From a virus: 41,666 nucleotides of DNA. Made by a program: the position numbers and the translations under genes. This document shows, one piece after another, positions 5,338 to 41,666 of this stretch. Every line of letters begins with the position of its first letter. Position 1 is the first letter of the stretch. The stretch spans positions 1 through 41,666 of IMG/VR virus record IMGVR_UViG_3300017613_001601; one strand, 5' to 3'. The notes beneath the pieces are model-generated. The model had not been told where the DNA came from. It saw nothing but the letters and a program-made list of their open reading frames with translations, and ran no database searches.

Positions 5338-5399
5338 CTGACACAAAAAAGCGTGACGGCCTTGATAGCCTCGATTCGCTGGTTCGCCCAACAATCTTA
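5310..5399 (+). repeat. attC-like site I (left core lost)
   Basis: The left arm is truncated to ATTCGAGAGCCGAAGG; the right arm is CCTCGATTCGCTGGTTCGCC. The left CGAG still pairs with the right CTCG. The right core GTTCGCCC (5392-5399) is complementary, 8/8, to GGGCGAAC (5601-5608) at the cassette end. Confidence 0.65.
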
Positions 5400-5922: not shown

Positions 5923-5932
5923 CAGACAACGA

Positions 5933-6027
5933 AAACAATGAGGGGCGGATTGCCCCAAAGGAGACTACAGATGAGCGATAAAAACGCGGCGGGGCAAGAC
6001 GTACCTTCCATTGACTGGTTGGAAGTA
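5933..6027 (+). repeat. attC-like site J
   Basis: The left CAGACAAC plus GAAAACAATGAGGGGCGGAT pairs with the right arm up to GACTGGTTGG; the complement of the right arm, with CAATGGAAGG and TTGCCCC, matches the left with few mismatches. The core GTTGGAAGTA (6018-6027) is complementary to TACTTCCAAC (6144-6153), 10/10. Confidence 0.85.
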
Positions 6028-6183
6028 GATATTCTTTCTGTTGATTTTGAAACAAACGAAATGGTTCTGATTCTACCAAAAGAAGTGGTGGCGCGTGGAT
6101 TTCACGCCGGAAAAGTTAAGGTTGATCTTTCGGGCGTACAACGTACTTCCAACGACAAGGTGAACCGTGAGCGTAGCGAATAG
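5971..6183 (+). CDS. Cassette protein with MSDKNAAGQDVPSIDWL tag (70 aa)
   Basis: 70 residues. The tag is identical to that of the 4994 gene; the specific part, EVDILSVDFETNEMVLILPKE onward in short strands, reads as a small beta domain. GGAG precedes the ATG at 5971. The last residues (NDKVNRERSE) are encoded within site K. Function unknown. Confidence 0.65.
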   Translation: MSDKNAAGQDVPSIDWLEVDILSVDFETNEMVLILPKEVVARGFHAGKVKVDLSGVQRTSNDKVNRERSE

Positions 6184-6204
6184 GCTCCACTTTCTGGTTA
6201 GGCG
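6144..6204 (+). repeat. attC-like site K, short and without a start codon
   Basis: About 60 bp: TACTTCCAAC on the left and GTTAGGCG on the right (6197-6204), a perfect GTTRRRY match. Arms: CAACGACAAGGTGAACC on the left against GGCTCCACTTTCTGGTT on the right. It has neither start codon nor downstream ribosome binding site, like a textbook attC. GTTAGGCG is complementary to CGCCTAAC (6446-6453), 8/8. Confidence 0.85.
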
Positions 6205-6233: not shown

Positions 6234-6452
6234 ATGAAAGACCAAGTACTGAAAATTGTAAAAAACGCACTCGCAGGAACCGAAGACAACCTTTACCGCG
6301 CAAACATGCAGTTTGGGCGAATGACTCCAGAACAATTAAAAGGCGAATACGGGCAGTCCGGCGAAACGTGCGGAAAGATTATGCAGGGCTACAGAGACGA
6401 AAACGAAAAACTGAAACAGTGCGTGGCATGGGTCGAGGACTGCCCCGCCTAA
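6234..6452 (+). CDS. Small helical cassette protein (72 aa)
   Basis: An ORF-complete cassette with its own AAAGGAG (6222-6228). 72 residues, starting MKDQVLKIVK, highly charged, with a likely coiled-coil (TPEQLKGEYGQSGETCGKIM, then DENEKLKQCV) and a C-terminal WVEDCPA. The stop lies in the closing core CGCCTAAC. No family recognised. Confidence 0.65.
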   Translation: MKDQVLKIVKNALAGTEDNLYRANMQFGRMTPEQLKGEYGQSGETCGKIMQGYRDENEKLKQCVAWVEDCPA

Positions 6453-6549
6453 CGACAAGATAACCAGCGGGAAAACCGCGAAGGGGTCAAGATGAAGGAT
6501 AAAATTTCGGGCGGTTTTCACCGTATGGTTCATTTTCTGGTTAGCTTCC
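6446..6549 (+). repeat. attC-like site L (96 bp identical to site P)
   Basis: Bases 6449-6544, from CTAACGACAAG to CTGGTTAG, are identical to 35939-36034 and both flanks diverge at once. Arms: AACCAGCGGGAAAACCGC on the left pairs with GCGGTTTTCACCGTATGGTT on the right with a few bulges. The core GTTAGCTTCC (6540-6549) is complementary to GGAAGCTAAC (6660-6669), 10/10. Confidence 0.9.
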
Positions 6550-6668
6550 GCGCTGGAAGATTGAACGACATCAACATCTTTGAGGTGATATTGCTTTCGG
6601 CAATCGTTGGATCATTGCTTGGGGCTATCATTTACATGGGATTCCTTGAGTTAATCAAGGGAAGCTAA
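6492..6668 (+). CDS. Small single-pass membrane protein
   Basis: 58 residues. Residues 1-18 (MKDKISGGFHRMVHFLVS) come from site L and are identical to the 35982 gene. The cassette part has a strong transmembrane helix, FEVILLSAIVGSLLGAIIYM, then a short tail ending ELIKGS. Translation probably begins after AAGGGG at 6481-6486. Possibly an envelope-acting accessory protein. Confidence 0.7.
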   Translation: MKDKISGGFHRMVHFLVSFRAGRLNDINIFEVILLSAIVGSLLGAIIYMGFLELIKGS

Positions 6669-6800
6669 CGACAAAGTGAGTCTCCGAGGCTCGAAAGGAC
6701 ACAAATGAAAAAAGCATCTGAAATTTTTGAAGACCAAAGAGGTTCGGCGTTTGCTGAATGCGTTGCGGAGCCGAAGGTAGATTCTATGGCTGGTTCGATT
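6660..6800 (+). repeat. attC-like site M
   Basis: The left GGAAGCTAAC with AAGTGAGTCTCCGAGGCTC pairs over 25-30 bases with the right GGAGCCGAAGGTAGATTCTA and GGCTGGTTCG. The spacer is long because the site contains the first 32 codons of the 6705 gene. The core GTTCGATT (6793-6800) is complementary to AATCGAAC (6970-6977), 8/8. Confidence 0.75.
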
Positions 6801-7031
6801 CCAGTATTTACGGAAAAAAACTTAAGGGAGTGCTCTTTTTTGGCAGAGGGAACGGTGTTTGTTTCCGAGCATAACGACCCGCTCAAATACTGGGTAGAAA
6901 TCGCGTTCTGTCGAAGCGTTGGGGTTTTCTTCCAAAAGAAAGACGCTGTCGAGTACGCAGAATTTATCAAATCGAACAGAGGTATAGATATAAAAAGTAC
7001 ATCTACGCAGATATTAAAGAGGAAAAGATGA
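6705..7031 (+). CDS. Cassette protein ending in an array-end tag (108 aa)
   Basis: 108 residues. About the first 30 are encoded by site M. The specific part (VFTEKNLRECSFLAEGTVFV, then FFQKKDAVEYAEFIKSNR) reads as a small alpha/beta fold. The last 18 residues (GIDIKSTSTQILKRKR) are the translated array-end element and presumably carry no function. The stop overlaps the hydrolase start (ATGA). Confidence 0.65.
   Translation: MKKASEIFEDQRGSAFAECVAEPKVDSMAGSIPVFTEKNLRECSFLAEGTVFVSEHNDPLKYWVEIAFCRSVGVFFQKKDAVEYAEFIKSNRGIDIKSTSTQILKRKR
6970..7027 (+). repeat. Array-end element (full copy 2) before the hydrolase
   Basis: AATCGAAC followed by AGAGGTATAGATATAAAAAG and TACATCTACGCAGATATT, then GAGGAAAAG and ATG. 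It matches the copies at 395 and 37058 at most positions. The preceding cassette's first 8 bases (6793) are complementary to its AATCGAAC. Confidence 0.7.
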
Positions 7032-7453: not shown

Positions 7454-7573
7454 ATGAAAAACAAGACTACGAAAAGTCGGAGGGTTAGCTTGATTGATGT
7501 TATTGGGCTATCAATTTTGATTGCCGGAATAATCGCCGTTGTGGAGATTCTGCGGATTATTTACACAAGCTAA
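7454..7573 (+). CDS. Very small membrane protein (39 aa), holin-like candidate
   Basis: 39 residues: basic N-terminus (MKNKTTKSRR) and one hydrophobic helix (DVIGLSILIAGIIAVVEI). Directly follows the hydrolase, so a holin role is possible. Only the bases after GTTAGC are cassette-specific. Start preceded by GACGGAGATTGAG at modest distance. Confidence 0.55.
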   Translation: MKNKTTKSRRVSLIDVIGLSILIAGIIAVVEILRIIYTS

Positions 7574-7574
7574 C
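7484..7574 (+). repeat. Small cassette, GTTAGCTTG to CAAGCTAAC
   Basis: The cassette begins GTTAGCTTG (7484-7492) and ends CAAGCTAAC (7566-7574), a 9/9 complement. It is only 91 bp and holds the C-terminal part of the 7454 gene. The left arm of its own site is not clear. The mature cassette encodes just a transmembrane helix. Confidence 0.75.
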
Positions 7575-7656
7575 GTTAATCATCAGTTTCGAGGAGAAAG
7601 ACTATGACCGAAGAAAACAAACGTTGTACTCGTAAAATGAATGATCTGGTTAGATG
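7566..7656 (+). repeat. attC-like site O
   Basis: The left CAAGCTAACGTTAATCATCA, then GTTTCGAGGAG, pairs with the right ACTCGTAAAATGAATGATCT over about 20 bases. The core GTTAGATG (7649-7656) is a perfect GTTRRRY match and complementary to CATCTAAC (7818-7825), 8/8. The site contains the ribosome binding site and start of the 7604 gene. Confidence 0.85.
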
Positions 7657-7846
7657 TCCTTTTTGCAAGACGGAAGGTGAATATCTGACAACGGTTATTG
7701 ATGACAACAAAGCGTGGGTAAGTTGCTTTGAATGCGGTTGCAAGGGGCCATTTGCTATTGACTCAAGTTATGGGGATAGCGCGTCAAAGTTTGCACGAAT
7801 ACTATGGAACAACTCAGCATCTAACAGAAGTATAAATGGAAAATGA
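7604..7846 (+). CDS. Lar-like zinc-binding protein
   Basis: 80 residues. From residue 17: CPFCKTEGEYLTT, then VSCFECGCKGPF and KFARILWNN; CPFC, CxxCG and the closing WN pattern are characteristic of the Lar family of small phage zinc proteins, known from Rac as restriction-alleviation protein. Function here is inferred from family resemblance only. Residues 1-16 come from site O, the last 7 (NRSINGK) from an array-end element. Strong GAGGAGA at 7591. Confidence 0.7.
   Translation: MTEENKRCTRKMNDLVRCPFCKTEGEYLTTVIDDNKAWVSCFECGCKGPFAIDSSYGDSASKFARILWNNSASNRSINGK
7818..7842 (+). repeat. Array-end element (short variant)
   Basis: CATCTAAC followed by AGAAGTATAAATGGAAA, as at 3738. It ends the left-hand array; normal non-cassette genes follow. 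Confidence 0.6.
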
Positions 7847-24891: not shown

Positions 24892-25866
24892 TTACGGAGT
24901 CTGATCAGAAAGAATACCGATCACGCCGCCCTGTGCAATCATGCGAGTTACACCAATCTGAATCCGACTGTAAACATGCGGATCGTAATGATTCTTCTGC
25001 AACTCATCCGAACGGACAAACGGCGATTCCCACTGTGCATAAGCCATTCCGCTTTTAACAAGCATTGCACACATGCGAATATCGTTAGCTCCGGCATCGT
25101 CTGCTGCAAACCCCTCTTTCGACCATGATTCATTGATCCCGGTCGCGGCATCATTGGCATACGGACAGGCTTCATCGACAACGATCTGCTTGATACCAAG
25201 GAGTCCCTTCGGCATATCAAGTCCTGCAAGAGCCGCGCTGGTCTGATAATCCAGACTGGTCAGCTTTTCCTGCAACTTCATGTCTGCTTCCACTTTCGGT
25301 GAAACAACAAGAGTCAGCTCGTTGCGCGGATCATTCGGATCAATTCCACGGCTTTTTGCCAACCGGATTGCTTCCACAATCTTATTGATATTCATACCGG
25401 TAGAACCAGAGCCGCCAAAAGCCGCCGCAACCACATCGGTTGAAGCCGCATTAAAGGACTCGCTTGTGCCACCGGCCTTTCCAGTGTAGGCCGTACCAAA
25501 CGCGGCGGCCATAACCTGCTGGGCACACTTGCGCCCAAGCGCATACTGAATCTGCATAGACAGATCAGAACGCGGATCAACCAATGATTCAACAGCATCT
25601 TTACTATCAAGTTGAGTAGCAAGATAGTGGAACTGCGGAACAACACGCCGACGAGAAAACTCGCCGTAATCAATATCATGCTCACCATAGCGAACACGAC
25701 CGGTATTTGCGGTCATTGCCTGAATCTGATTAAAATACGCTTCTTCACCCTTTTTCTGTCCTTTATTGGTCAGATAAGGAAGGAGCGTCATTTTTGATTG
25801 AGGCAGCTCTTGAAGAGTCGCCTCAAATGCCTTTGTAGGCATTACTTCATAAAAGGTATTACCCAT
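24892..25866 (-). CDS. Major capsid protein
   Basis: 324 residues with the pattern of HK97-fold capsid proteins of this group: N-terminal MGNTFYEVMPTKAFEATLQE, RRRVVPQFHYLATQLDSKDA near 75-95, AASTDVVAAAFGGSGSTGMN near 140-160, and a central hydrophobic region (NELTLVVSPKVEADMKLQEK). Follows a scaffold-like gene and a strong promoter (26035), both expected for a highly expressed capsid gene. Ribosome binding site TGGAGAAAAAC. Confidence 0.85.
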   Translation of the reverse strand: MGNTFYEVMPTKAFEATLQELPQSKMTLLPYLTNKGQKKGEEAYFNQIQAMTANTGRVRYGEHDIDYGEFSRRRVVPQFHYLATQLDSKDAVESLVDPRSDLSMQIQYALGRKCAQQVMAAAFGTAYTGKAGGTSESFNAASTDVVAAAFGGSGSTGMNINKIVEAIRLAKSRGIDPNDPRNELTLVVSPKVEADMKLQEKLTSLDYQTSAALAGLDMPKGLLGIKQIVVDEACPYANDAATGINESWSKEGFAADDAGANDIRMCAMLVKSGMAYAQWESPFVRSDELQKNHYDPHVYSRIQIGVTRMIAQGGVIGILSDQTP

Positions 25867-26867: not shown

Positions 26868-27174
26868 TATCCTCTCCTTCTTTTAGTTCTGCTTCTGTTG
26901 CCTTTACTAAATTTCTTAGCATTTGAGAGTACGCCCTCGCACCCTCTTTAGCAGCAATCCATTCCTTTGCATTAGCCTGATAAATCATGGAAACGCTCTC
27001 TTTACCCACCATAGTATTAGTACGTAAATCTGAAAAAATAGATGTGTGAAGTTCAAACCACGCATCTACATCATCAAGCGTTTTTAGAGCATCCTCATTA
27101 TCAAGAAAGCGGGTATAGCGAGAAAGCCGTTCGCCAAGTCCGGCTTTTATTTCTTCAGGAGTTGTTTCTTTCAT
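26860..27174 (-). CDS. Small helical protein between portal and scaffold
   Basis: 104 residues, helical and charged (MKETTPEEIKAGLGERLSRY, then NLVKATEAELKEGEDNE). Start overlaps the portal stop by 4 bases and its end overlaps the scaffold start by 8, typical of a coupled morphogenesis gene. Role unknown. Confidence 0.6.
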   Translation of the reverse strand: MKETTPEEIKAGLGERLSRYTRFLDNEDALKTLDDVDAWFELHTSIFSDLRTNTMVGKESVSMIYQANAKEWIAAKEGARAYSQMLRNLVKATEAELKEGEDNE

Positions 27175-28844
27175 AATTGTCCATCAAGGGCGCGCTGGGT
27201 TAAAGAACCTTGGCCGGGCGTACCGCCACCCTTACTTGCGGCATCTGCCAACCTGACTGCATTTTCCATCTCAGCCTGCCGCGCCGCCGATGCTTTATAG
27301 TCATTTACAATCTTCTTCACATCAGTCCTCTTGCGAAGCATTTCCATTGGCGCGTTTGTTCCTTCAAAAATTTCTTTCGGCAATTTTATCGTATCAATAG
27401 AAGCCATTAACTCTACCTGCATTTCAGGAGCAGGCAATCCCTGTGAAAACTCTACCAGGAATCCAAGAGCCTCGCGTTCCGCCAAAAGCCGAATACGTTT
27501 CTGTGCATTGGATAAACGGGATTTATACCGTATTTTCAACCGTCCGCCAAATTGTTCAAGAAGCTCGTCCTTAGAACCGAAATCTTCGAATTTCCCAGCT
27601 TCCGCCAACTGATAGAACCGCATTTGAAGAAGTTTATTCAGAAGGTCGTTTTCAAGAGGGGTTACAATCTGTGAAACCATCTGATGTGATTTCTGCACCC
27701 GCTCCCTCATTTCCGAAGCTGTCATATTCCGGCGATCTTGAAGCGGATTAAAATAGTCGAGGAAGAAAAGCTGGCGCATGGTATCAGACAGATATTTTAT
27801 CCACGACTCTCCATCTTCCACTTTGGCCTGAGAAATAATCTGATGAGGAGGATGCCCGGAAATCCCCACATCTTTATAAAGCAGGATTCGGAAATACGCA
27901 TCTTTTTCATCAATTATTTTATAAGCGTTTTGTCCCTGCGATGCAGGAACCCCAAGGAAGGGAACGGTATTAATCGTTACCGCCCTGCGAATGGCTTTCA
28001 TGCCCTCTTCAATCTCGGCCATTGTGCAAACAGCATCAATACACGGCCCGCGCCCCAACGACTCGGTACGGCTTCGACGAACAGCGTAAACAGCAAATTT
28101 CTGGTAATCAGAACCTCCCTTCTCAAGCAGGTGGGCTTCATCGCCCATTTCATAGGTCAACACCACATACTTTTTATTATCAATATCCTTTTTAAGGGCA
28201 TCCCGTTCTTCACGTTTGGCGCAATAACAGATAATATCAATATCTTGATCGGGATTCTCTTCAAATTTATTTTTGCAGTTTTCGGAGACATTCTTCAGTC
28301 CAAACCGCTCAACTAACGCACCTGCCGTGGTAGTCTTTTTAATCCAGACCGTATCTGCTTCTCCGTAATAGTCCCTCGCAAACCAAAAATTACCAAAGGG
28401 AACCGCGCTGTCTCTGATTTTCTCTTCACCTGTATAACGCTCGGAATACTGACATACCGTTCCGTCCTCACAGGAAGAGGCCACCGCCAAAGCAAATTCA
28501 CTCACAAAATTGGAATGATTGATGGAGTCCATCGTAAGTTCAGTCAGTTTACCGAGAATATCATACTCATCTTGCGTGGCATCATTGACATAATATTCAA
28601 ACCACTGATCACCGGATGTAATCATTTCCGAGACAATACCTGCCGTATAATCGTTTTTAAAAAGCGTTCCAATATCAGCTATACGTCTCTTATGAAGCTT
28701 TGCGCCTTTTTGCGCCTGTATTCTCAACGTCGCGGCATCAGGATTAAAAAGTTCACGTACACTCTGAATTAAGGTCGTGAAAGTCTGCCACTCGTCAGAT
28801 GTGTCTATCTTTACCCTGCGTTTTTCAATCGCTTGTACATCCAT
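27171..28844 (-). CDS. Portal (head-tail connector) protein
   Basis: 557 residues. MDVQAIEKRRVKIDTSDEWQ at the N-terminus, GDQWFEYYVNDATQDEYD near 75-92, and a C-terminal MELMASIDT-type helical region give the pattern of T7-like connectors. Position between the Gly/Ala-rich gene and scaffold fits. It should form the dodecameric DNA entry ring. Starts after GGATAATATC. Confidence 0.8.
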   Translation of the reverse strand: MDVQAIEKRRVKIDTSDEWQTFTTLIQSVRELFNPDAATLRIQAQKGAKLHKRRIADIGTLFKNDYTAGIVSEMITSGDQWFEYYVNDATQDEYDILGKLTELTMDSINHSNFVSEFALAVASSCEDGTVCQYSERYTGEEKIRDSAVPFGNFWFARDYYGEADTVWIKKTTTAGALVERFGLKNVSENCKNKFEENPDQDIDIICYCAKREERDALKKDIDNKKYVVLTYEMGDEAHLLEKGGSDYQKFAVYAVRRSRTESLGRGPCIDAVCTMAEIEEGMKAIRRAVTINTVPFLGVPASQGQNAYKIIDEKDAYFRILLYKDVGISGHPPHQIISQAKVEDGESWIKYLSDTMRQLFFLDYFNPLQDRRNMTASEMRERVQKSHQMVSQIVTPLENDLLNKLLQMRFYQLAEAGKFEDFGSKDELLEQFGGRLKIRYKSRLSNAQKRIRLLAEREALGFLVEFSQGLPAPEMQVELMASIDTIKLPKEIFEGTNAPMEMLRKRTDVKKIVNDYKASAARQAEMENAVRLADAASKGGGTPGQGSLTQRALDGQL

Positions 28845-29914: not shown

Positions 29915-31354
29915 CTAAAAGAACCCATCCATGCTCGGCATTTCCAGCCACTCAAAGCTATCATTCATATTCTTCGGGGCAACCATTCCTTTATCAAGGG
30001 CCTCACACATAGTCCTGAACGCATCAGCATTATTACTTGAGGCATCATGTTCATCTACACCCATTCCCACGCCCTCCCGATTCACTTTTTCATGATAAGA
30101 AGCCAGCGTATCCACCGCATCGGCGCACTCCGCCGCAAAATGGGCATACTGCCATGCCCGGCGACAGATTTCTATAGACTGCATAATGTGGTGTCCACGT
30201 CTCGGCACGGAGGTAAACTCGATTCCTGATTCTCTTGCCCATTGCAGATTATTACCCTCAACCCCCGCAATCCCCTTATTTATATCCCACGGCGCATAGT
30301 GATTGCCGTACATATAACCCCTTGAGTTAAGAAGCCGGGCGTGTTCTGCCCATGTCTGCCCCCGACTCTCTTCATAGCCAATCAAATTGATTCTCTTAGG
30401 CTTCGGTAAATCCTCATCTGGAAACTGCACAAACCATACCGCCATCGCATCGGTACACTTCTGTGCGGTGCCCTTTCCCAAATCCCAGAAGGTATAGACC
30501 GGAAGACGAGGCTCATACTTTGCATCGTTTAACCGCCCGCCATCCTTCGCTCTGGCGTATTCGTGGGCGTAATATCCGCTCTCGTTATTAAGAACCGCCT
30601 CGTTCAAAAATTCCTGACGAGCCAGCGCATAACTGATTTCCCCTGAATCAACAAGCTTTTGAATGTTAGTATATTCCCGGCCGGTTTCCGGATTGATAGT
30701 TCCCGCTAATTCAGGATTGATATTCAATCCGTCGCCTACCCAATAGTACTGCTTCGTAATCTCAGGTACCAACCACTGCGTAAACCAGTCTTCCGCCCCG
30801 AAATTCTTCTCGAAATTCTTATAAAGGTGGTTCTGCTTGCCCCGCAATGTCCCCTGAAGTATCATCATTGCGTTGGCCTCTTCCAAAATCGGAGAAATAT
30901 AGCTGGTTACGTCAGATCGGTGCAGTGAATACTCCGAAATCCCGAATGCAGCACCCCCCTGACCCACAAAATCAAGATTATCCGTACCCGAAAACTGCAT
31001 TACCGACCCGTTCGGATACGTTATTTTTAAATCTTTCTCGTGCTTTGTGACGGGAAGCCCTTCCGGAATCAAGATGTCTATAAGCTTCCCCTTCCTTTCC
31101 CGTCCGCCCACTATGATTTCCTGCGTGTTGTTCCAAATCGCCCGCTCAGCCCACGCCCTCGTCGGAAAAAGATACCAATAATTACCCACTCGACGCATAG
31201 CCTCCATCTGCATCAGATTAAACATGCTGACATCTTTTCCGTGACGACGAGGCCAAGTATAAAGAAGTCGCCTAATCCCCCGCCAATAGGCTTTAAACAA
31301 CGGAATCTGATACCACCTAGGCGGCAAGGCAGGCAGATAAAGGGGCTTATTCAT
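29915..31354 (-). CDS. Terminase large subunit
   Basis: 479 residues. The N-terminal ATPase has a Walker A variant WPRRHGKD at residues 34-41 and the acidic AAFGISEYSLH near 136-145 with the predicted catalytic Glu (E141). The C-terminal nuclease region is marked by TFWDLGKGTAQKCTDAMAVW near residue 280 and aspartates around VDEHDASSNNAD. This is the TerL type found in T7-like phages with terminal DNA packaging. Pairs with the 32715 small-terminase candidate. Confidence 0.9.
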   Translation of the reverse strand: MNKPLYLPALPPRWYQIPLFKAYWRGIRRLLYTWPRRHGKDVSMFNLMQMEAMRRVGNYWYLFPTRAWAERAIWNNTQEIIVGGRERKGKLIDILIPEGLPVTKHEKDLKITYPNGSVMQFSGTDNLDFVGQGGAAFGISEYSLHRSDVTSYISPILEEANAMMILQGTLRGKQNHLYKNFEKNFGAEDWFTQWLVPEITKQYYWVGDGLNINPELAGTINPETGREYTNIQKLVDSGEISYALARQEFLNEAVLNNESGYYAHEYARAKDGGRLNDAKYEPRLPVYTFWDLGKGTAQKCTDAMAVWFVQFPDEDLPKPKRINLIGYEESRGQTWAEHARLLNSRGYMYGNHYAPWDINKGIAGVEGNNLQWARESGIEFTSVPRRGHHIMQSIEICRRAWQYAHFAAECADAVDTLASYHEKVNREGVGMGVDEHDASSNNADAFRTMCEALDKGMVAPKNMNDSFEWLEMPSMDGFF

Positions 31355-35713: not shown

Positions 35714-35775
35714 GCGATAAAATGAATTCGATGGTTAGTCTAAAGTTGAACAATCAACGAAGGAGAGAAACGTGA
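35710..35775 (+). CDS. Mini-ORF (21 aa) at the first right-hand cassette site
   Basis: 21 residues (MSDKMNSMVSLKLNNQRRRE), ATGA-coupled to the upstream gene. Its Met-Val-Ser is encoded by GATGGTTAGTC, the site core. Probably only a by-product of the site, with the real gene (35772) in the cassette behind it. Confidence 0.35.
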   Translation: MSDKMNSMVSLKLNNQRRRET

Positions 35776-35943
35776 AAGCAGAACACGACGGAATAAAACT
35801 CACACTAACAAAACCAGAAAGCCTCTTGCTCAAAGAGTTGGCTGGGAAAATAACAGGGCAAATGATAACAGAGCAAATGAAGCTTACAGGCGAACATGGT
35901 GCCTTCTGCGATAATCTTTACGATTTGCTTTGTGAAGACTAAC
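35734..35943 (+). repeat. Cassette GTTAGTCT to AGACTAAC
   Basis: GTTAGTCT (35734-35741) and AGACTAAC (35936-35943) are 8/8 complementary. The cassette holds one ORF-complete gene (35772). The left arm of its site is only weakly visible. Confidence 0.75.
35772..35942 (+). CDS. Small cassette protein with GTG start (56 aa)
   Basis: GTG start with AAGGAGAGAAAC before it; 56 residues (VKAEHDGIKLTLTKPESLLL, ending NLYDLLCED), helical with an acidic C-terminus. It has its own ribosome binding site, as in ORF-complete cassettes. Stop within the closing core AGACTAAC. Unknown. Confidence 0.65.
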   Translation: MKAEHDGIKLTLTKPESLLLKELAGKITGQMITEQMKLTGEHGAFCDNLYDLLCED

Positions 35944-36037
35944 GACAAGATAACCAGCGGGAAAACCGCGAAGGGGTCAAGATGAAGGATAAAATTTCGG
36001 GCGGTTTTCACCGTATGGTTCATTTTCTGGTTAGTTT
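35936..36037 (+). repeat. attC-like site P (96 bp identical to site L)
   Basis: 35939-36034 is base-for-base identical to 6449-6544. The preceding cassette closes with AGACTAAC and the following opens with GTTAGTTT (36030-36037), complementary to AAACTAAC (36191-36198), 8/8. Identity of these sites in different arrays indicates recent recombination or duplication. Confidence 0.9.
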
Positions 36038-36197
36038 TTTTACTCTGCGATACGAGATTCAAGAGCGTTTAATGGGAGGACAAAACTACTGGATGATTGA
36101 CAGAATCTACATGGGAGAAAGAGTGTTTTTTGAACGGTGGAACACGCCTGAGTCAGCCCAAAAACGTTTGGATGAACTTAACGGATTCATAAACTAA
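35982..36197 (+). CDS. Cassette protein with site-L-type N-terminus (71 aa)
   Basis: 71 residues. Residues 1-18 (MKDKISGGFHRMVHFLVS) are identical to the 6492 protein; after VS the two differ completely. Specific part: an aromatic/basic segment (LMGGQNYWMIDRIYMGERVF) and a helical end (ESAQKRLDELNGFIN), perhaps a small DNA-binding or MTH-like domain. Function unknown. Confidence 0.65.
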   Translation: MKDKISGGFHRMVHFLVSFFTLRYEIQERLMGGQNYWMIDRIYMGERVFFERWNTPESAQKRLDELNGFIN

Positions 36198-36288
36198 CGA
36201 CAACCATGAGGCTGAAGAGCCGAAGAAGAAACAATGACTGAAACAAAAAAGCGTGACGGCCTTGATAGCCTCGATGAACTGATTAGCC
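36191..36288 (+). repeat. attC-like site Q with mutated core
   Basis: Arms as in sites C and D (CATGAGGCT against AGCCTCGATG). The core is ATTAGC instead of GTTAGC, and the cassette's end is GCTAAT instead of GCTAAC (36487-36492): both ends changed together, as expected if the pairing must be kept. Confidence 0.8.
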
Positions 36289-36491
36289 TACTGAAAGAGC
36301 GTCCCGGTCGGACTTGTACTGAGATCGGAGAATCTCTGTGGGGCGGAACAATGACCGCCAAAGCGAGAGACCGCCAGCACTACGCAAGACCGGCCGGCAA
36401 GCTGGTCAAACGAGCAATGGCACTTGGGCTTGTGCGGGAACGCCGCATCTTTGGGAAAAGACATATGCGCCGTGAATTCTTAGCACGCTAA
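36234..36491 (+). CDS. Winged-helix-like cassette protein
   Basis: 85 residues. After the shared MTETKKRDGLDSLDELI, the specific part ERPGRTCTEIGESLWGGTMT, then GKLVKRAMALGLVRERRIFG reads as a winged-helix DNA-binding domain (helix-turn-helix plus basic wing). Likely a small regulator or accessory factor. Ends in the closing core GCTAAT. Confidence 0.6.
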   Translation: MTETKKRDGLDSLDELISLLKERPGRTCTEIGESLWGGTMTAKARDRQHYARPAGKLVKRAMALGLVRERRIFGKRHMRREFLAR

Positions 36492-36530
36492 TGCATGAAT
36501 GAAACTGAAGAAACGATGCGATCTGGCACG
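36487..36530 (+). repeat. Degenerate site with half-lost arm
   Basis: Left GCTAATGCATGAATGAAACTG resembles the usual left arm, but the right arm is missing. The next cassette seems to open at TCTGGCACG (36522-36530), matching CGTGCCAAC (36563-36571) at 7 of 9 bases. A deletion within a site is the likely history. Confidence 0.45.
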
Positions 36531-36616
36531 ACTACAAGGACAAGGTGCGTCCGATCATTGAGCGTGCCAACGCAAATGGTGACTCTTCACCGGAAACCAC
36601 GAAGGAGATTACATGA
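36495..36616 (+). pseudogene. Frameshifted tiny cassette gene
   Basis: The ATG at 36495 starts MNETEETMRS, but a good coding frame (DAIWHDYKDKVRPIIERANA) is one base out and ends with TGA at 36614-36616, overlapping the next ATG. A one-base loss around 36515 would restore a single protein starting MNETEE. Either a pseudogene or a chimera left by the degenerate site. Confidence 0.5.
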
Positions 36617-36676
36617 GCAACAAAACAAAAAAGCAACCGGACGGGTCGGTGATAGAGTCCAACAAATTGTTGGATG
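36563..36676 (+). repeat. attC-like site S
   Basis: Left CCAACGCAAATGGTGACTCT with TCACCGG pairs with the right GGTGATAGAGTCCAACAAAT over about 25 bases with few mismatches; arm bases are unrelated to the other sites, yet still pair. Core GTTGGATG (36669-36676), complementary to CATCCAAC (36791-36798), 8/8. Confidence 0.85.
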
Positions 36677-36828
36677 ATTTGGTCAAATTGGTCAAGGCGG
36701 TCGAGACGGAAACATACGGCGGAATCTACGTCTGCGATGTTGACGAAACGAACTGGTTTGACATGAGGGATGAAGTGTTGGTTAGAGCAACATCCAACGC
36801 CTGCTGTCAGCCTGAGAGAGCGGAGTGA
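36613..36828 (+). CDS. Cassette protein (71 aa) with conserved arm codons
   Basis: 71 residues starting MSNKTKKQPDGSVIESNKLL; the first 20 belong to site S. Specific part: DDLVKLVKAVETETYGGIYV, DVDETNWFDM and a Cys-containing end. GAAGGAGATT before the ATG. Unknown. Confidence 0.6.
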   Translation: MSNKTKKQPDGSVIESNKLLDDLVKLVKAVETETYGGIYVCDVDETNWFDMRDEVLVRATSNACCQPERAE

Positions 36829-36858
36829 ACGATAGGATGAACGCGCTTGTTGAATTTC
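36791..36858 (+). repeat. attC-like site T
   Basis: Left CATCCAACGCCTGCTGTCAG pairs with right CTATCG..AGGATGAACGCGCTTGTTG with bulges. Core GTTGAATTTC (36849-36858) fits GTTRRRY and is complementary to GAAATTCAAC (37058-37067), 10/10. Confidence 0.75.
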
Positions 36859-36890
36859 AATTTGAACAGAGGAAAGAAAATGGATGTTGA
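36837..36890 (+). CDS. 17-residue ORF in site T
   Basis: 17 residues (MNALVEFQFEQRKENGC), reading out of site T into the cassette and overlapping the real gene start. Likely unimportant or a coupling leader. Confidence 0.3.
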   Translation: MNALVEFQFEQRKENGC

Positions 36891-37059
36891 AAACTATAAA
36901 TTTAAGAAGGGTCAAAAATTCCACCTTGATTCCATCTACTCAGTCCAAGGGTTGGGTGGGGGTGATTGGTGGGAACACGAAGACGATTGTGAATATTCCG
37001 ACAACGTTATAATCACAAAAACCATTGAAATAAAAATCAATGTTAAAATCACGGATTGA
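36880..37059 (+). CDS. Small cassette protein (59 aa)
   Basis: 59 residues: MDVENYKFKKGQKFHLDSIY, then GGGDWWEHEDDCEY and a strand-like tail KTIEIKINVKITD. GAGGAAAG upstream of the ATG, so the cassette is ORF-complete. Closing core overlaps the stop region. Unknown. Confidence 0.65.
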   Translation: MDVENYKFKKGQKFHLDSIYSVQGLGGGDWWEHEDDCEYSDNVIITKTIEIKINVKITD

Positions 37060-37118
37060 AATTCAACAGGTGATATAAATATAAAAAGTCCATCTACGAA
37101 GATATTAAAGGAGAAAAG
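37058..37118 (+). repeat. Array-end element (full copy 3)
   Basis: GAAATTCAAC followed by AGGTGATATAAATATAAAAA and GTCCATCTACGAAGATATT, then AAAGGAGAAAAG and ATG, very like 395-453. It ends the right-hand array and leads into non-cassette genes. Confidence 0.7.
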
Positions 37119-37274
37119 ATGAACTATACATTGCCAAATTCCGGAAATTACCCTCCGGGAATGACCGATGCCGACTACCGCCACGTTAACGGTGAGGAAG
37201 AGGAATTCGATGAAGGGGCCGATCCGAGGGATGATGCGCATGATGGGAAAGATTATGACAAAAGAAGAAAATAG
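37119..37274 (+). CDS. Small acidic protein (51 aa) after the array
   Basis: 51 residues: [20 protein letters not shown], then the very acidic [20 protein letters not shown] and a basic KRRK tail. AAGGAG upstream. Overlaps the next gene by 20 bases. Highly acidic small phage proteins can mimic DNA or inhibit host proteins; that is only a suggestion. Confidence 0.6.
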
Positions 37275-37803
37275 AATCAGATGTCTTGATTACAGAAATC
37301 GCAACAGGGAAAAGATGCGTGAGTACGAACGGAAACGGTCACAAACAAGAACAGCTAGAGCACCTGAAAGAGAATGTTTGCTTTGCGGGTGTATATTCAA
37401 ATCATACCGGAAAGATCAAAAATATTGCTCTAAATCATGTCAAGCAAAACACGCCAACACGGGGCGCGTACAACCACGAAGTGCTGTTGAGGCCAATAAG
37501 ATTGCGCGAGAAAACCACCCCAACACAGGACGGTTTGAAACAAACAAGCATGCAAAACATTGGCGTATTACTGATCCTCATGGATGTAACTATGAATTTG
37601 ATAACCTTGAGCATTTTGTTAGGAATAATTCTGAATTGTTTGAAGGTGGGGATGTGGAAAGCGACCCCAGCCTTGCCGCGCACCAGCTTCGGCGGCTTCG
37701 ACCCGACAGAAAGCACAGGATAAATTCATGGAAGGGCTGGGCTTGGAATTTCAATACTGCCAACAGAAACATAAATGGAAAAAGGAAAACACAATATGAG
37801 TGA
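37255..37803 (+). CDS. Homing-endonuclease-like zinc protein (182 aa)
   Basis: 182 residues. ATG at 37255 ([15 protein letters not shown]) is preferred over the 37168 start, which reads through the upstream gene. Residues 41-62, [19 protein letters not shown] plus SKSC, form a zinc knuckle (C41, C44, C58, C62). The C-terminal [20 protein letters not shown] and KGW motif are typical of the DNA-binding module of phage homing-like enzymes. No clear HNH or GIY-YIG catalytic motif is seen. The last residues (NRNINGK) come from an array-end element. Confidence 0.65.
37759..37795 (+). repeat. Array-end element (short variant)
   Basis: GCCAAC followed by AGAAACATAAATGGAAAAAG, as at 3738 and 7818. 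No matching GTT core is found upstream, so this may be the remnant of a lost cassette. Confidence 0.5.
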
Positions 37804-38074
37804 TGATCTGTTTGATATTTGCGAGCGAAAACACGGCGGAAATCCAAATTCCGTCGCCGCCAATGAGCGCATAGTTCCATCGAAAGATGCGGTCAGAGCG
37901 AGGGTGCTTGAGGTTGTCCGGCTCCACTCGCAGATAACGCTTGCAGAACTAGCTGAGATGTGGGGCGTTGAAAAGAACACCATTTCCGGCAGGTTCAGCG
38001 AGCTGAAAACCCGTGGACTAATCGAACAGCGAGGCCGCCGCGACGGGTGCGGCATTTGGCGGCTGTGCAGATGA
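37796..38074 (+). CDS. Winged-helix DNA-binding regulator
   Basis: 92 residues from ATG 37796 ([10 protein letters not shown]), chosen over the 37775 start since AAAGGA precedes it. Residues 33-90 ([40 protein letters not shown] and TRGLIEQRG) form a MarR/ArsR-like winged helix. Likely a phage transcription regulator; the TTAGA-type operators may be its sites, but that is a guess. Confidence 0.75.
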
Positions 38075-38247
38075 GAAAGAATATGACAGATTCAGATTAT
38101 TTACAGGATGCGCTAGACGCTCAGGACAAGGAATTGCGACGAGAAAAAACAGCTCGCTTGAGAAAAAGATTTCGAAACAGAAATAAATTTCTACCAAAAC
38201 TAAAACGGGCAATTAGAAATTTCCACCTAAACCGAGGCATAGATTAA
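38071..38247 (+). CDS. Small basic protein (58 aa)
   Basis: 58 residues, [20 protein letters not shown] then a basic end (RKRFRNRNKFLPKLKRAIRN), ATGA-coupled to the regulator. Probably binds nucleic acid. Not obviously in a cassette. Confidence 0.6.
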   Translation: MRKNMTDSDYLQDALDAQDKELRREKTARLRKRFRNRNKFLPKLKRAIRNFHLNRGID

Positions 38248-38265
38248 AAAACAAGGAGAAATAAC

Positions 38266-38442
38266 ATGAGTGATAACCGGACATTTGAAAGCGAGATTGA
38301 CCAAATAAGAAGGACGATAACAAATCCCAATATGTCTCCGGAAGACGAAACGGAAACATTAAGGCTTATTCTGAAAATTATTTTCCATCAGGGGGGCATT
38401 GAGGCCATGAACCAGTGTAGAAAGGAAATGAAGGAAATATAA
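38266..38442 (+). CDS. Small helical protein (58 aa)
   Basis: 58 residues: MSDNRTFESEIDQIRRTITN with a second helix (DETETLRLILKIIFHQ). ACAAGGAG before the ATG. Helical-dimer-like; no family recognised. Confidence 0.6.
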   Translation: MSDNRTFESEIDQIRRTITNPNMSPEDETETLRLILKIIFHQGGIEAMNQCRKEMKEI

Positions 38443-38443
38443 T

Positions 38444-38608
38444 ATGAAAACCACTACCCAAGATGGCCACACTCTTCCGATACCGCTTGAACACTTCGGA
38501 AGTCCGGCAGAAAAAAGTGAATTGCAAAAATCCGTGGGCGCTTTATTGAAACGCAAGAACTGGTTTCGCGGCGAAGCTCACCAGCCAACAGGAAAACCCA
38601 AACCTTAG
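38444..38608 (+). CDS. Small polar protein (54 aa)
   Basis: 54 residues: MKTTTQDGHTLPIPLEHFGS then a Lys-rich stretch and a proline-rich end (HQPTGKPKP). Preceded by GAAGGAAATAT. Stop overlaps nothing and a promoter follows at once. Unknown. Confidence 0.6.
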   Translation: MKTTTQDGHTLPIPLEHFGSPAEKSELQKSVGALLKRKNWFRGEAHQPTGKPKP

Positions 38609-38610
38609 CC

Positions 38611-38639
38611 TTGCACTTATAAGGGTATAGGTGTAGAGT
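38611..38639 (+). promoter_or_regulatory. Promoter before the nuclease operon
   Basis: TTGCAC (38611-38616), 17-base spacer and TAGAGT (38634-38639). The -10 matches the early promoters exactly. Drives the YopX-like, 39063 and nuclease genes. Confidence 0.55.
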
Positions 38640-38673
38640 GCCGTTCAGTTAAACGAAAGAAGGAGAAATCGAA

Positions 38674-39066
38674 ATGATGCGCACAATAATTTTTCGCGGA
38701 AAACGGATTTACAGAGATAACGGAACCGATTTTGTTTATGGGTTCTATGTTTACAATAAAATTCTGAAACAACACCGGATAAACACACCATCGGGTGGGT
38801 CTGCGGAAGTCTCCCCCGCCACAGTCGGGCAGTTTACGGGGCTTCTTGATAAGGAAGGCAAGGACATTTACGAAGGGGATATTGTCGAATATGATTCGGC
38901 AAAAAATGAGTATGGCGGCAAATTATTTGTCAACATGGTTTGCTGGGATTATGCGCGAAGCCAATGGGCCCTATCACCTTATTCCCGCCCTTATTATCTT
39001 GGCGAGGAAATGAGAGTCATCGGCAACGTAACAGATCACTCCGAACTGTTGGAGAAATCGAAATGA
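38674..39066 (+). CDS. YopX-family protein
   Basis: 130 residues. IIFRGKRIYRDNGTDFVYGF at 4-23, then VSPATVGQFTGLLDKEGKDI at 46-65 and YEGDIVEYD are textbook YopX (PF09643) motifs. Known only as a widespread phage family of unclear function. AAGGAG upstream. Stop overlaps the next start (ATGA). Confidence 0.85.
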   Translation: MMRTIIFRGKRIYRDNGTDFVYGFYVYNKILKQHRINTPSGGSAEVSPATVGQFTGLLDKEGKDIYEGDIVEYDSAKNEYGGKLFVNMVCWDYARSQWALSPYSRPYYLGEEMRVIGNVTDHSELLEKSK

Positions 39067-39404
39067 AACTAATTCCATCACTTAATGACACCGGCGAATG
39101 CTACACGTTTAGAGATGCGGACAATGGAAACTTTATTGTTGGGCATGAAAGCCGTCATGACGCGCTTGGCTTGGCTCGGCACATTCTCCTGCTGGATCAA
39201 GATCGAAACTCGTCAGAAAAACTGGCAACTGCAGAAAAGAATTTTGCACTTACAGCAAATACTTTTGCTGACAGAATCCTTAACGGGGAAAGCGCGGAAG
39301 ACCTAAAAAAGGAACTCACAGAGAGGACGTTCCAGCTTACGGAAATAATTATAAACGGACAGGAAGCCGGGCTTGATGAATATCGGGCTAAAAGGAGTGA
39401 CTGA
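39063..39404 (+). CDS. Helical protein upstream of the nuclease (113 aa)
   Basis: Start at 39063 (MKLIPSLNDTGECYTFRDAD), ATGA-coupled to YopX. 113 residues with a helical middle (SSEKLATAEKNFALTANTFA) and acidic stretches; stop touches the nuclease start. Perhaps its partner or inhibitor; unknown. Confidence 0.6.
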   Translation: MKLIPSLNDTGECYTFRDADNGNFIVGHESRHDALGLARHILLLDQDRNSSEKLATAEKNFALTANTFADRILNGESAEDLKKELTERTFQLTEIIINGQEAGLDEYRAKRSD

Positions 39405-40456
39405 TGCAAGTAAACTTAACGGGAATCCAAGCGGAAGCAAAAAAGAACTTTGAGACATTTCAAACCCTTCGACCTGTAGGAGCGGTAACCCTTGTCCACG
39501 ACAAAGAAAACGAATACGACTCTTTTTGCATTCAGGTTTTTTACGGGGATATTTGCCTGGGCTATATCCCCGCCCTTAAAAAAGGGGGGGAATACATTGG
39601 AAGCGAACTCCAGAAACACATCATTGATAACAATATCACGACCGCTTTAATTAACTCATACCAGTATTTGGACGAAAAATTCACACGAGGCAAAGGCGAT
39701 TTTGAATATGTTGATGAACACCTAGGGTGGAACGATCAACACAAAGGCCACCTTCAATCTGTTACCCTTGAAATTGACATTCCTGAAAATGATTCCGGCA
39801 GGGCCATTGGCGGAAAATATCTAAGAGTCACCACTTTCATTTCCTACTTTGCCCCCTATGGAGGGAGTGACGGACTAATTAAATGGGCATTTAATCAGGC
39901 AGATACCTATGATGGCTACAGGAAGCGCCTTGACAGGCTATCTGAGGACGGAACGGCTATGCATGCATCCATCGAAGCCTATTTAAACAGAACACGCTCT
40001 GCGGGCGAGCTGGAGGCTCTGCCGGACGGATGGCTTAATTTTGTCAATAAGTACGAAATTGACGTTATCGAGACGGAAAAGCGGTTCTACGACAACACGC
40101 TGGGCGTGACCGGCCAGCCCGACCTGCTTTGTTTTCTCCGAAAGCGTGGTAGTGAGGATGAATTTAAATTAACCGTAGTGGATTGGAAATCCAAAAAGAA
40201 GCCGTCTATGAAAGAACAGCTACAGCTATCCATCTACTCGAAAAATAAAAGCTTTGAAGACCAACCGGTTGAGCAGGCCATAGTTGTTTGTTTCGGTGCA
40301 GAAAATGCACAGGGCTTTACTACGGCAACCTATAAGCGGGATAAAATTGAAGCCACCTATCAGGCAATGATATTGCTTCGGAAGGTCATGGAGGGGTGCG
40401 GTGTGTGGGTTCACGAAAGTAAATACTGGGGAATCCCGCGAAAGGAGATCAAATGA
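39404..40456 (+). CDS. HIRAN plus PD-(D/E)XK nuclease fusion
   Basis: 350 residues. Residues 5-60 fit a HIRAN domain (GAVTLVHDKENEYDS, then GDICLGYIPALK). The C-terminal part is a RecB/Cas4-type nuclease: GTAMH near 183-187, D240 in TGQPDLLCFL, VVDWKSKKKP with D260 and K262, and the QxxxY motif Q274-Y278 (QLSIY). Likely processes DNA ends in recombination or host-genome degradation. The end of the gene doubles as left arm of the next site (40408). Confidence 0.8.
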   Translation: MQVNLTGIQAEAKKNFETFQTLRPVGAVTLVHDKENEYDSFCIQVFYGDICLGYIPALKKGGEYIGSELQKHIIDNNITTALINSYQYLDEKFTRGKGDFEYVDEHLGWNDQHKGHLQSVTLEIDIPENDSGRAIGGKYLRVTTFISYFAPYGGSDGLIKWAFNQADTYDGYRKRLDRLSEDGTAMHASIEAYLNRTRSAGELEALPDGWLNFVNKYEIDVIETEKRFYDNTLGVTGQPDLLCFLRKRGSEDEFKLTVVDWKSKKKPSMKEQLQLSIYSKNKSFEDQPVEQAIVVCFGAENAQGFTTATYKRDKIEATYQAMILLRKVMEGCGVWVHESKYWGIPRKEIK

Positions 40457-40505
40457 AAACAAAACGCTGGCGGGTTCCCTGTATGGTTCAACTTCTGGTT
40501 GGGTT
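40408..40505 (+). repeat. attC-like site W inside the nuclease 3' end
   Basis: Left GGTTCACGAAAGTAAATACT with GGGGAATCCCGCG pairs with the right GCGGGTTCCCTGTATGGTTC over 20 bases. Core GTTGGGTT (40498-40505), complementary to AACCCAAC (40644-40651), 8/8. The left end has TTCACG instead of AACGAC. Confidence 0.75.
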
Positions 40506-40644
40506 GTTTAAGAAAGACACCAATCTGTGCCTTAAATGTAAATACCTTTCAGAGGATGGTATCTGCTACGAACTCTCAAACCGCGTGTGCTGTGCTTGTC
40601 GCCCAGATCACCGGAACAAATGCAAGGACTTCAAAAAGAAGTAA
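40453..40644 (+). CDS. Cys-rich zinc cassette protein (63 aa)
   Basis: 63 residues. MKTKRWRVPCMVQLLVG comes from site W; the specific part CLKCKYLSEDGICYELSNRV then CCACRPDHRNKCKDFKKK has seven cysteines, likely two zinc sites. Unknown function. AAAGGAG upstream. Confidence 0.65.
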   Translation: MKTKRWRVPCMVQLLVGLFKKDTNLCLKCKYLSEDGICYELSNRVCCACRPDHRNKCKDFKKK

Positions 40645-40704
40645 ACCCAACGTTGAGATAACTTGCGAGTGCTTTTCTCGTCAAGTTAATTGACGTGTTA
40701 TGCT
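40644..40704 (+). repeat. attC-like site X, ORF-free and compact
   Basis: 61 bp: AACCCAAC on the left, GTTATGCT on the right (40697-40704). GATAACTTGCGAG pairs with CTCGTCAAGTTAATTG with one bulged base; the loop is about 10 bases. No start codon inside. GTTATGCT is complementary to AGCATAAC (41053-41060), 8/8. Together with K the most typical attC form here. Confidence 0.9.
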
Positions 40705-40726
40705 AAAAACTAAAGGAGAAAACAAG

Positions 40727-41053
40727 ATGAATGTAATAATTAATCCAGGCACAGAAGCAGTTGAACAAGCAACAATTGAAAACGCAACAATAAATATGAA
40801 ACAATTAATTGAAGATTCTGGGCAAACTGGCGTTACTTTTGAACGAATAAAAAAACAAGATGCTGAAGGTAGATTTGCTTTCAGATTAAAAAGTGAGAAG
40901 CACAATTTTACAATCGGTGTTGATATGCCTGGTTGTGATTTAGAAAAAGTTCAAGCAAGTAAACCATTTTATTCGCCAAGATTGTATATTGACGGTTCAA
41001 GTTGGCTTTGGGGATATGCACTTGGATTTATAGATTTTGATAGAGACAAATAA
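40727..41053 (+). CDS. AT-rich cassette protein (108 aa)
   Basis: 108 residues (MNVIINPGTEAVEQATIENA, then KQLIEDSGQTGVTFERIKKQ; C-terminal SSWLWGYALGFIDFDRDK). It has its own AAAGGAG and lies entirely between the cassette ends. Codon use is clearly AT-richer than neighbours (AAA, GAA, ATT, TTT), suggesting recent acquisition from another genome. The C-terminal part resembles small phage- or integron-cassette proteins but no family is recognised. Confidence 0.7.
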   Translation: MNVIINPGTEAVEQATIENATINMKQLIEDSGQTGVTFERIKKQDAEGRFAFRLKSEKHNFTIGVDMPGCDLEKVQASKPFYSPRLYIDGSSWLWGYALGFIDFDRDK

Positions 41054-41143
41054 GCATAACGTTTGAAATGAGTTTCCGAACACATAAACATGGAGAAGAA
41101 AAATGGGCGTTATTGAGGTAAATTCAATTTCCTTGTTCGATTC
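41053..41143 (+). repeat. attC-like site Y
   Basis: Left AGCATAACGTTTGAAATGAG and TTTCCGAAC pairs with the right GGTAAATTCAATTTCCTTG over about 20 bases. Core GTTCGATTC (41135-41143). Its cassette ends in GAATCGAC (41274-41281), complementary except for one lost base. Confidence 0.75.
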
Positions 41144-41288
41144 AGCTCTTTGCTGGTGGCAAAGACGAAGACCTTTAATCTGGACTCAGGAGCAACATCT
41201 TGAACATCCAACGATAAACTGTGTTGATTCAGCAGAGCACAGGCTTGCCGAAAATGTCGCACGAATCGTCAAGGAATCGACTGAATGA
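41103..41288 (+). CDS. Small cassette protein (61 aa)
   Basis: 61 residues. MGVIEVNSISLFDS is partly from site Y; specific part LCWWQRRRPLIWTQEQHLEH and a helical end (EHRLAENVARIVKESTE). ATGGAGAAG upstream of the start. Unknown. Confidence 0.6.
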   Translation: MGVIEVNSISLFDSALCWWQRRRPLIWTQEQHLEHPTINCVDSAEHRLAENVARIVKESTE

Positions 41289-41412
41289 GACTGAAGAAGG
41301 GGAATACTATGGATGATGTAAGATGTACAAAATGTGGATGCCAAATCAAACCGACTTATGAGTGTGCGTGTCGCGCCCCTTCTGATAGTTCTCGATTGAC
41401 TGGTTCTGTTTC
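41274..41412 (+). repeat. attC-like site Z (long spacer)
   Basis: Left GAATCGACTGAATGAGACTG pairs weakly with the right CGATTGACTGGTTC. Core GTTCTGTTTC (41403-41412) is complementary to GAAACAGAAC (41539-41548), 10/10, the longest match in the set. The spacer contains 31 codons of the 41309 gene, as in site M. Confidence 0.7.
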
Positions 41413-41581
41413 TCAACGGTTAATCGAAGCTGAAGACATCCTCTCGGATTTATCGACAGGGTTTTGGGTTTCAACGCTAGACGATGCTGATGTGCCAGTG
41501 AATGTTAAGATGGGACAGCGTGTTTTGAATTACTGGAAGAAACAGAACGTCACGCATGAGCCTTGCGGAAAAAGGCTTTAA
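41309..41581 (+). CDS. Zinc-binding cassette protein (90 aa)
   Basis: Start at 41309 (MDDVRCTKCGCQIK) behind GAAGGGGA. 90 residues. N-terminal CTKCGCQIKPTYECACRAPS holds a zinc ribbon; the cassette part after TGSV is a short helix (QRLIEAEDILSDLSTGFWVS) and strand. The last 11 residues (NVTHEPCGKRL) are encoded within the next site. Function unknown. Confidence 0.65.
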   Translation: MDDVRCTKCGCQIKPTYECACRAPSDSSRLTGSVSQRLIEAEDILSDLSTGFWVSTLDDADVPVNVKMGQRVLNYWKKQNVTHEPCGKRL

Positions 41582-41628
41582 ATTAATCCGGCGCGTTGTC
41601 CGCATAGGTTCTATGCGCTGGTTAGGAG
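41539..41628 (+). repeat. attC-like site AA at the window end
   Basis: Left GAAACAGAACGTCACGCATG and AGCCTTGCGG pairs with right TCCGCATAGGTTCTATGCGC then TGGTTAGG over 20 bases. Core GTTAGGAG (41621-41628). The cassette it opens ends at CTCCTAAC (113-120) at the other window end, 8/8, so the window is circularly continuous. Confidence 0.85.
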
Positions 41629-41636
41629 AAAAGGCT

Positions 41637-41666
41637 ATGGCGAATTCAAGATTATATATTTACGAC
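41637..41666 (+). CDS. 5' part of the cassette gene that crosses the window ends
   Basis: ATG at 41637 behind AGGAG at 41624-41628; 10 codons (MANSRLYIYD) to the window end. The likely continuation is the frame from base 3 of the window (1-119), which needs one extra base at the junction to be in frame. Together about 49 residues, acidic, unknown function. Confidence 0.55.
   Translation, partial: MANSRLYIYD

Follow-up and report, generated by a model that had tools for sequence, protein, structure and literature searches.

Inverted attC sites carrying translation starts in integrase-less integron cassette arrays of a tailed phage

The viral genome IMGVR_UViG_3300017613_001601 was analysed as the whole IMG/VR entry of 41,666 bp (hereafter the window). 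It contains about twenty short open reading frames (ORFs) on the plus strand, at 35.7-37.1, 40.4-41.67 and 0-7.84 kb, which are separated by imperfect inverted repeats of 57-138 bp (246 bp in one case) edged by RYYYAAC and GTTRRRY-like boxes. These inverted repeats are attC sites, and they are inverted relative to the genes, each lying at the 5' end of its own gene. There are 18-20 of them in about six arrays placed between core genes, with one short ORF per attC and with the cassettes in tandem in a single orientation. The tyrosine recombinase family PF00589 has no match in the record and no intI lies beside the array; with at least two attC sites close together, the arrays are therefore clusters of attC sites without an integrase (CALINs). 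We consider it probable that they are cassette arrays in inverted form on whose plus strand the integron integrase (IntI) of a host acts. A previous reading of the letters alone (the original prediction) had already proposed some twenty genes in one orientation, split by inverted repeats with an AAC left and a GTT right edge, in a tailed phage with CALIN-like arrays and no tyrosine recombinase gene; the box tests, geometry scan and PF00589 search bear this out, except that the right box is degenerate in sites C, L and P. Two further statements did not hold: the normal cassette order assumed for genes and sites is contradicted by the asymmetry of the sites, and the view that integrons are known only from chromosomes and plasmids is contradicted by phage integrons and CALINs reported in PMC9892861.

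Box pairs selected by motif only (YAACG..YKGTTR) had an own-arm complementarity of 9.76, compared with 7.08 (sd 0.48) when arms were swapped between sites (0 of 20,000 permutations). In the structural genes, the same motif gave no significant arm complementarity (5,201 of 20,000 permutations). The arms of 16 sites assigned by eye likewise paired with their own partners; these sites were partly picked for their complementarity, so that the weight rests on the box-motif test and on a geometry scan. The latter was adopted because hairpin scanning with a symmetric score separated the sites poorly from the background, and it was run blind with the layout of class 1 attC sites, i.e. R box, 5 nt, 3 bp, extrahelical base, 6 bp, extrahelical base and stem, with 6 nt on the other side. 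In its strict form the scan detected eight sites in the array region, all on its minus strand, against a mean of 0.03 (maximum 1) in 100 dinucleotide shuffles, and none on either strand of the 27.3 kb of structural genes. The relaxed form gave 11 sites (0.2 in shuffles). Class 1 sites were recovered by the strict scan in R751 and L007 (one each) and in L010 and L011 (two each), together with both sites of phage TJE1, every one of them oriented as its gene. The scan is specific but not exhaustive, since it missed the V. anguillarum VAR sites, whose geometry differs. The sites of PH101, P12002L and ctTUS972 were not recovered by it either. The AAC of the left window box is kept in all assigned sites and the right box drifts (ATT, GCT). 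Two sites, G and H, were added here to the originally predicted set.

Unpaired extra (extrahelical) bases on the R''-L'' arm make attC sites asymmetric and define the recombining strand (Bouvier et al. 2009, PMC2727003). The window sites have the unpaired central spacer and the two extrahelical bases 6-8 nt apart on the R''-L'' arm that belong to the definition given there. Read in gene direction, the extra bases were distributed 61 left to 11 right in 20 canonical attC sites and 4 left to 37 right in the window sites. Pairs at the canonical positions numbered 142 of 252 in minus-strand orientation versus 98 in plus orientation; with swapped arms 91 would be expected in the minus orientation (maximum 126, with 142 reached in 0 of 50,000) and 75 in the plus orientation. 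Site C was misplaced by 4 nt in this test, an error that works against the result. Pairing of the 3-bp L segment was 34/54 in the minus and 8/54 in the plus orientation. Spacing is the same in the aadA1 attC (AAC, AATTCGTT, C, AAGCCG, A) and in the minus-strand reading of site I (AAC, CAGTCCAT, C, GACTTT, A), whose layout follows that of aadA1 at every base (8 nt, extrahelical C, 6 bp, extrahelical A; 6 bp, 3 bp, 6 nt). It is the window minus strand that corresponds to the top strand of a canonical attC; every cassette gene is encoded on the plus strand and all strict sites are opposite to their gene. The arrays thus depart from the usual, though not absolute, order in which attC follows the 3' end of the gene in the same orientation. 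Since the extrahelical bases lie on the right arm, the sites are inverted and the gene to which an attC belongs is the one that follows it downstream, as read in window orientation, with the crossover predicted at the left window box, AA^C. An initial model, in which exchange at the right window box (G^TT) fuses a shared N-terminal tag in frame to new bodies, was dropped as the main one because the extrahelical bases place the crossover at the left box; an additional second exchange at G^TT is possible.

By inspection, about 14 of 18 downstream genes start inside their attC with a Shine-Dalgarno sequence in the loop, so that the distal arm codes for the first residues. Under a fixed rule applied in gene direction (Shine-Dalgarno sequence and start inside the attC, ORF running on), the same was found for 9/13 sites in the window and for 4/7 and 2/6 sites in two further phage contigs, P31 and P65; the background was 0.15 for random 90-bp gene-strand stretches, and 1 of 26 sites scored in the opposite direction. 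Several N-termini are shared: sites C, L and R encode MTxTKKRDGLDSLD.., sites Q and T MSDKNAAGQDVPSIDWL.. and sites B and V MKDKISGGFHRMVHFLVS.., each time followed by unrelated bodies. The cassette at 7604-7846 receives MTEENKRCTRKMNDLVR from its site, followed by a CPFC motif, and encodes a Lar-like protein (PF14354, 4e-6, just below the cut-off; phrog_599, 6e-6). Between sites B and V, identity is 100% over precisely the stretch from CTAAC to GTTAG, and the sequences flanking it on either side are unrelated. The start codons in most hairpin loops, and a folded strand that is the coding strand, would also suit RNA-level elements controlling translation or mRNA stability at the ribosome-binding sites of small genes, in which case the likeness to attC would be convergent. 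Such elements do not, however, predict the AAC and GTT boxes, the two extrahelical bases 6 bp apart on one arm with class 1 spacing, the sequence identity that ends at the boxes or the array ends that are conserved exactly from AAC, and the layout is repeated in two phages with different attC sequence types; we regard this explanation as very improbable. An Rfam scan gave no match.

Five array ends share a block (AACAG..GTATAAATATAAAAAGTCCATCTACG..), which in the alignment of these ends is conserved rightward from AAC and variable immediately to the left, its edge coinciding exactly with the predicted crossover AA^C. Three copies reach as far as a core gene (454, 7028 and 37119), extending up to its ribosome-binding site and start codon. 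The opposite strand reads conserved..CTG^TT followed by variable RRRY, as expected of attI beside the first cassette, and from this pattern we infer that the blocks, unremarked in the original prediction, would act as attI. In several arrays, the first site after a core gene (35712-35740, 2433-2495, 7455-7490 and 40400-40490, the last overlapping the end of the exonuclease gene) has attC-like arms and an in-frame tag and is devoid of the AAC crossover box; these are possibly frozen cassettes.

In the mechanism that we propose, a cassette would extend from the AA^C crossover through the attC (one hairpin arm, a loop with Shine-Dalgarno sequence and start codon, and a second arm encoding the N-terminus) and the gene body to the next RYYYAA. 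The strand folded and cut by the integron integrase would be the plus strand, i.e. the coding strand. A host-encoded IntI probably acts in trans on plus-strand single-stranded phage DNA and would join the attC to another attC or to the conserved attI-like block directly upstream of a core gene, so that insertion could take place at the array-end block or between cassettes. Phage promoters upstream would transcribe through each array, and the cassettes are presumably still mobile. attC hairpins inhibit the passage of ribosomes (PMC4670013, PMC8876359), and according to a review short ORFs in some attC sites relieve this block (PMC8876359); a start codon in the loop may avoid the inhibition. As the start signals lie in the attC loop, each captured gene would bring its own translation start and insert sense-wise into the phage operon.

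The arrangement recurs in P31 (IMGVR_UViG_3300032164_000047) and P65 (IMGVR_UViG_3300043466_002015), unrelated contigs that were found by a second pattern scan and whose attC sites are of different sequence types. P31 carries a major head protein, an internal virion protein and a connector; 7/7 of its sites are inverted, antisense to its annotatable genes, and one cassette encodes a C5 cytosine methyltransferase (PF00145, 2e-57) that starts within its site. A weak Lar match is also present. In P65, 6/6 sites are antisense, in two arrays. PF00589 has no match in either contig. This recurrence bears on the possibility that the arrays are inert remnants, i.e. an ordinary bacterial cassette block captured once by illegitimate recombination and now immobile, as would fit the lack of an integrase, the degeneracy of several sites and the illegitimate capture suggested for phage CALINs by Qi et al. 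2023 (PMC9892861). Ordinary bacterial cassettes share attC orientation, though, and a captured block would do so too, whereas the sites in the window, P31 and P65 are all inverted; moreover, the window cassettes are spread across several arrays between fixed genes with a common end block. We therefore judge a single capture to be unlikely. It is even less likely, in our estimate, that a phage-encoded recombinase of unrecognised type moves the cassettes in place of a host IntI: many phage ORFs have no family match, but the sites agree with the substrates of IntI in all features tested, no recombinase candidate turned up, and P31 and P65 are also without PF00589.

Beyond these two phages, of the matches in the 209-kb contig G008 one looks real and the other four are weaker; by chance about one per strand would be expected. 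One strong attC with the boxes of the window, antisense to the flanking phage genes, is present in two related contigs, L016 (IMGVR_UViG_3300036944_001289, 209 kb, at 6510-6592) and L021 (98 kb). Bacterial genomes (Desulfobacterales, Pirellula, Methylococcales and others) likewise contain CTAACGACAA..CTGGTTAG-type boxes with true attC stems, and the bacterial arrays L038 (4 sites) and L041 (5 sites) have similar boxes in canonical orientation. The box type that L038 (Desulfobacterales) and L041 (Pirellula) have in common with the phage is a possible guide to attC type and host range. Exact attC patterns had 0 matches in IMG/VR and GTDB contigs, the end-block pattern had 0 in IMG/VR, and a distant DNA search of phages and plasmids with window 4950-7600 returned none. 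Relatives by terminase and tail protein were at 22-30% identity or absent and had no attC, as was the case for the relatives of P31 at 23-27%.

Several observations weigh against the proposed explanation. Where identical attC sites are joined to different bodies at the far box (B/V, C/L/R, Q/T), the second box would have to be exchanged as well, and the simple cassette model does not predict this. About seven window sites are degenerate (E, L, P, Q, R, U and W are weak or were assigned by hand). The single-strand folding suggested as a check in the original prediction was mixed: 10 of 18 sites had z below -1, the mean z was -1.09 and site G did not fall below its shuffles, so that folding energy is not strong evidence. 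The attI role is drawn from five copies in one genome, no shared end block was found in the P65 arrays, and the blocks could be a conserved leader of the downstream genes that merely abuts the cassettes. Finally, no close relative that could show gain or loss of cassettes was found; the closest ones by terminase are 22-30% identical and without attC.

The features are listed in Table 1. The minus strand encodes the structural genes, i.e. terminase, head-tail adaptor, major head protein and a tail protein whose nearest isolates are podovirus-like phages (32-40% identity over 57-68% of the protein). Replication genes, including an exonuclease (39404-40456) and a DnaC-like protein (1740-2390), lie on the plus strand at 35.7-41.67 and 0-8.1 kb, with the arrays of 50-117-aa ORFs interspersed among them. 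A 51-aa ORF reads across the record ends, from 41637 to base 126; the array thus continues through the circular junction, as had been predicted. In the loop of site R, a copy of GAGCCGAAGGAGAAACRATGAC lies on each side of the extra ORF, as would result from insertion of a gene within the attC by short-repeat duplication. Outside the arrays, at 33276-34929, gene leaders recur (AAACCGAAAYGGAGACAGRAAATGAAA, in several copies) and a promoter-like repeat, TTGGAGATAATAGTTGACC.., is present twice.

Table 1. Coordinates of attC sites, attI-like end blocks and fixed structural genes in the window.
Feature	Position	Strand	Evidence	Associated gene or remark
attC site B	35937..36036	-	geometry scan 11.3	holds Shine-Dalgarno and start of ORF 35982-36197
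attC site C	36192..36288	-	relaxed scan 11.2	right window box degenerate (ATT); holds start of ORF 36234-36491
attC site D	36565..36675	-	strict scan 14.5	holds start of ORF 36613-36828
weak attC-like site E	36792..36855	-	canonical-position pairing L6 5/6, L3 2/3; absent from strict scan	precedes ORF 36880-37059
attC site F (59 bp)	40645..40703	-	strict scan 12.7	precedes ORF from 40727
attC site G	41054..41141	-	strict scan 11.9; folding energy not below shuffles	holds start of ORF 41103-41288
attC site H	41542..41627	-	strict scan 14.2	precedes junction-spanning ORF 41637 to 126
attC site I	114..200	-	strict scan 15.2; arm layout as aadA1 attC	leader peptide from 131; cassette ORF 205-408
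degenerate attC site L	2967..3062	-	arms and tag common to C, R	holds start of ORF 3008-3226
attC site M	3243..3351	-	strict scan 12.2	holds start of ORF 3291-3545
attC site N	3506..3602	-	geometry scan 11.2	holds start of ORF 3542-3793
degenerate attC site P	3842..3942	-	arm complementarity, extrahelical bases on right arm; absent from strict scan	holds start of ORF 3878-4117
degenerate attC site Q	4947..5047	-	right half identical to T; weak arm pairing	holds start of ORF 4994-5188
attC site R	5143..5388	-		extra ORF 5185-5337 in loop; holds start of ORF 5334-5600 (zinc-ribbon-like)
attC site S	5602..5712	-	strict scan 13.2	encodes lipoprotein-type signal (read from sequence) of ORF 5653-5922
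attC site T	5924..6024	-	geometry scan 11.2	holds start of ORF 5971-6183
short weak attC site U	6147..6203	-	boxes and spacer conserved, weak stem	precedes ORF 6234-6452
attC site V	6447..6546	-	geometry scan 11.0	holds start of ORF 6492-6668
weak attC site W	6663..6799	-		holds start of ORF 6705-7031
attC site Y	7568..7655	-	strict scan 13.8	holds start of Lar-like restriction alleviation ORF 7604-7846
attI-like end block	37065..37121	+	alignment of 5 ends	before fixed ORF 37119
attI-like end block	400..456	+	alignment of 5 ends	before fixed ORF 454-894 (Holliday-junction-resolvase-like)
attI-like end block, diverged copy	3743..3775	+	alignment of 5 ends	
attI-like end block	6975..7030	+	alignment of 5 ends	before cell-wall hydrolase 7028-7405
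attI-like end block, short copy	7823..7843	+	alignment of 5 ends	before ORF 7843-8082
terminase large subunit	29915..31354	-	phrog_2, 9e-15	fixed phage gene
head-tail adaptor/portal	27171..28844	-	phrog_332, 4e-48	fixed phage gene
major head protein	24892..25866	-	phrog_3437, 3e-30	fixed phage gene

A broader view, which we put forward tentatively as a fair chance rather than an expectation, is that these phages represent a phage-adapted branch of integrons, in which the attC serves as a mobile translation-start module, cassettes are inverted for sense-wise insertion into operons, several attI-like acceptors precede core genes, and host integrases are borrowed to swap accessory genes, some of them for counter-defence (Lar-like protein, DNA methyltransferase). 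Phages would then keep a cassette design of their own that suits phage operons, beyond picking up bacterial cassettes, and host integrases would be tied to phage gene exchange. The fusion of one attC with its N-terminus to different bodies exactly at the second box would also bear on how cassettes originate. The use of host IntI by phages to exchange anti-defence genes becomes testable, as does the service of one sequence as recombination hairpin, ribosome-binding site and coding sequence. A search rule is also gained, namely attC antisense to the genes, which searches assuming the normal cassette order would not apply.

The phage-borne location as such is not new, since integron parts have been published from phages before: Qi et al. 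2023 (PMC9892861) describe 17 CALINs, three complete integrons and one In0 across 21 phages, along with attC sites of virulent phages on which IntI1 is active. The window resembles the phages named there (TJE1, PH101, P12002L, Myoviridae ctTUS972 and V. anguillarum phages) in having integrase-less attC arrays in a tailed phage, and methyltransferase cassettes occur among those integrons and CALINs as well. It differs from them, as they are described there, by inverted cassettes and starts inside attC, and further in that its 18-20 sites form about six arrays, which lie between core genes and have an end block in common; the sites of TJE1 are canonical relative to its genes. No description of inverted cassette arrays with starts inside attC was found in the literature, in a search largely outside subscription journals. 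With class 1 attC sites (aadA1, ant(2'')-Ia, aac(6')-Ib, R751 orf) the window sites share the R boxes, the unpaired central spacer, the extrahelical bases and the L stem geometry, but class 1 attC sites lie at the 3' end of the gene, whereas those of the window lie at the 5' end and mostly encode the N-terminus. The bacterial CTAACCAG..TTGTCGTTAG arrays (Pirellula L041, Desulfobacterales L038 and Methylococcales L049) have the same boxes and stem layout; in L038, whose genome has two full IntI matches, and in L041, genes and attC run in the same direction, unlike in the window. ORF-11 of attI1 is a leader peptide that aids translation of the first cassette, and attI1 is thus, like the window sites, a recombination site carrying translation start signals. 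attI1 is, however, a platform site present once per integron, whereas the start signals of the window reside in the mobile attC sites of most cassettes.

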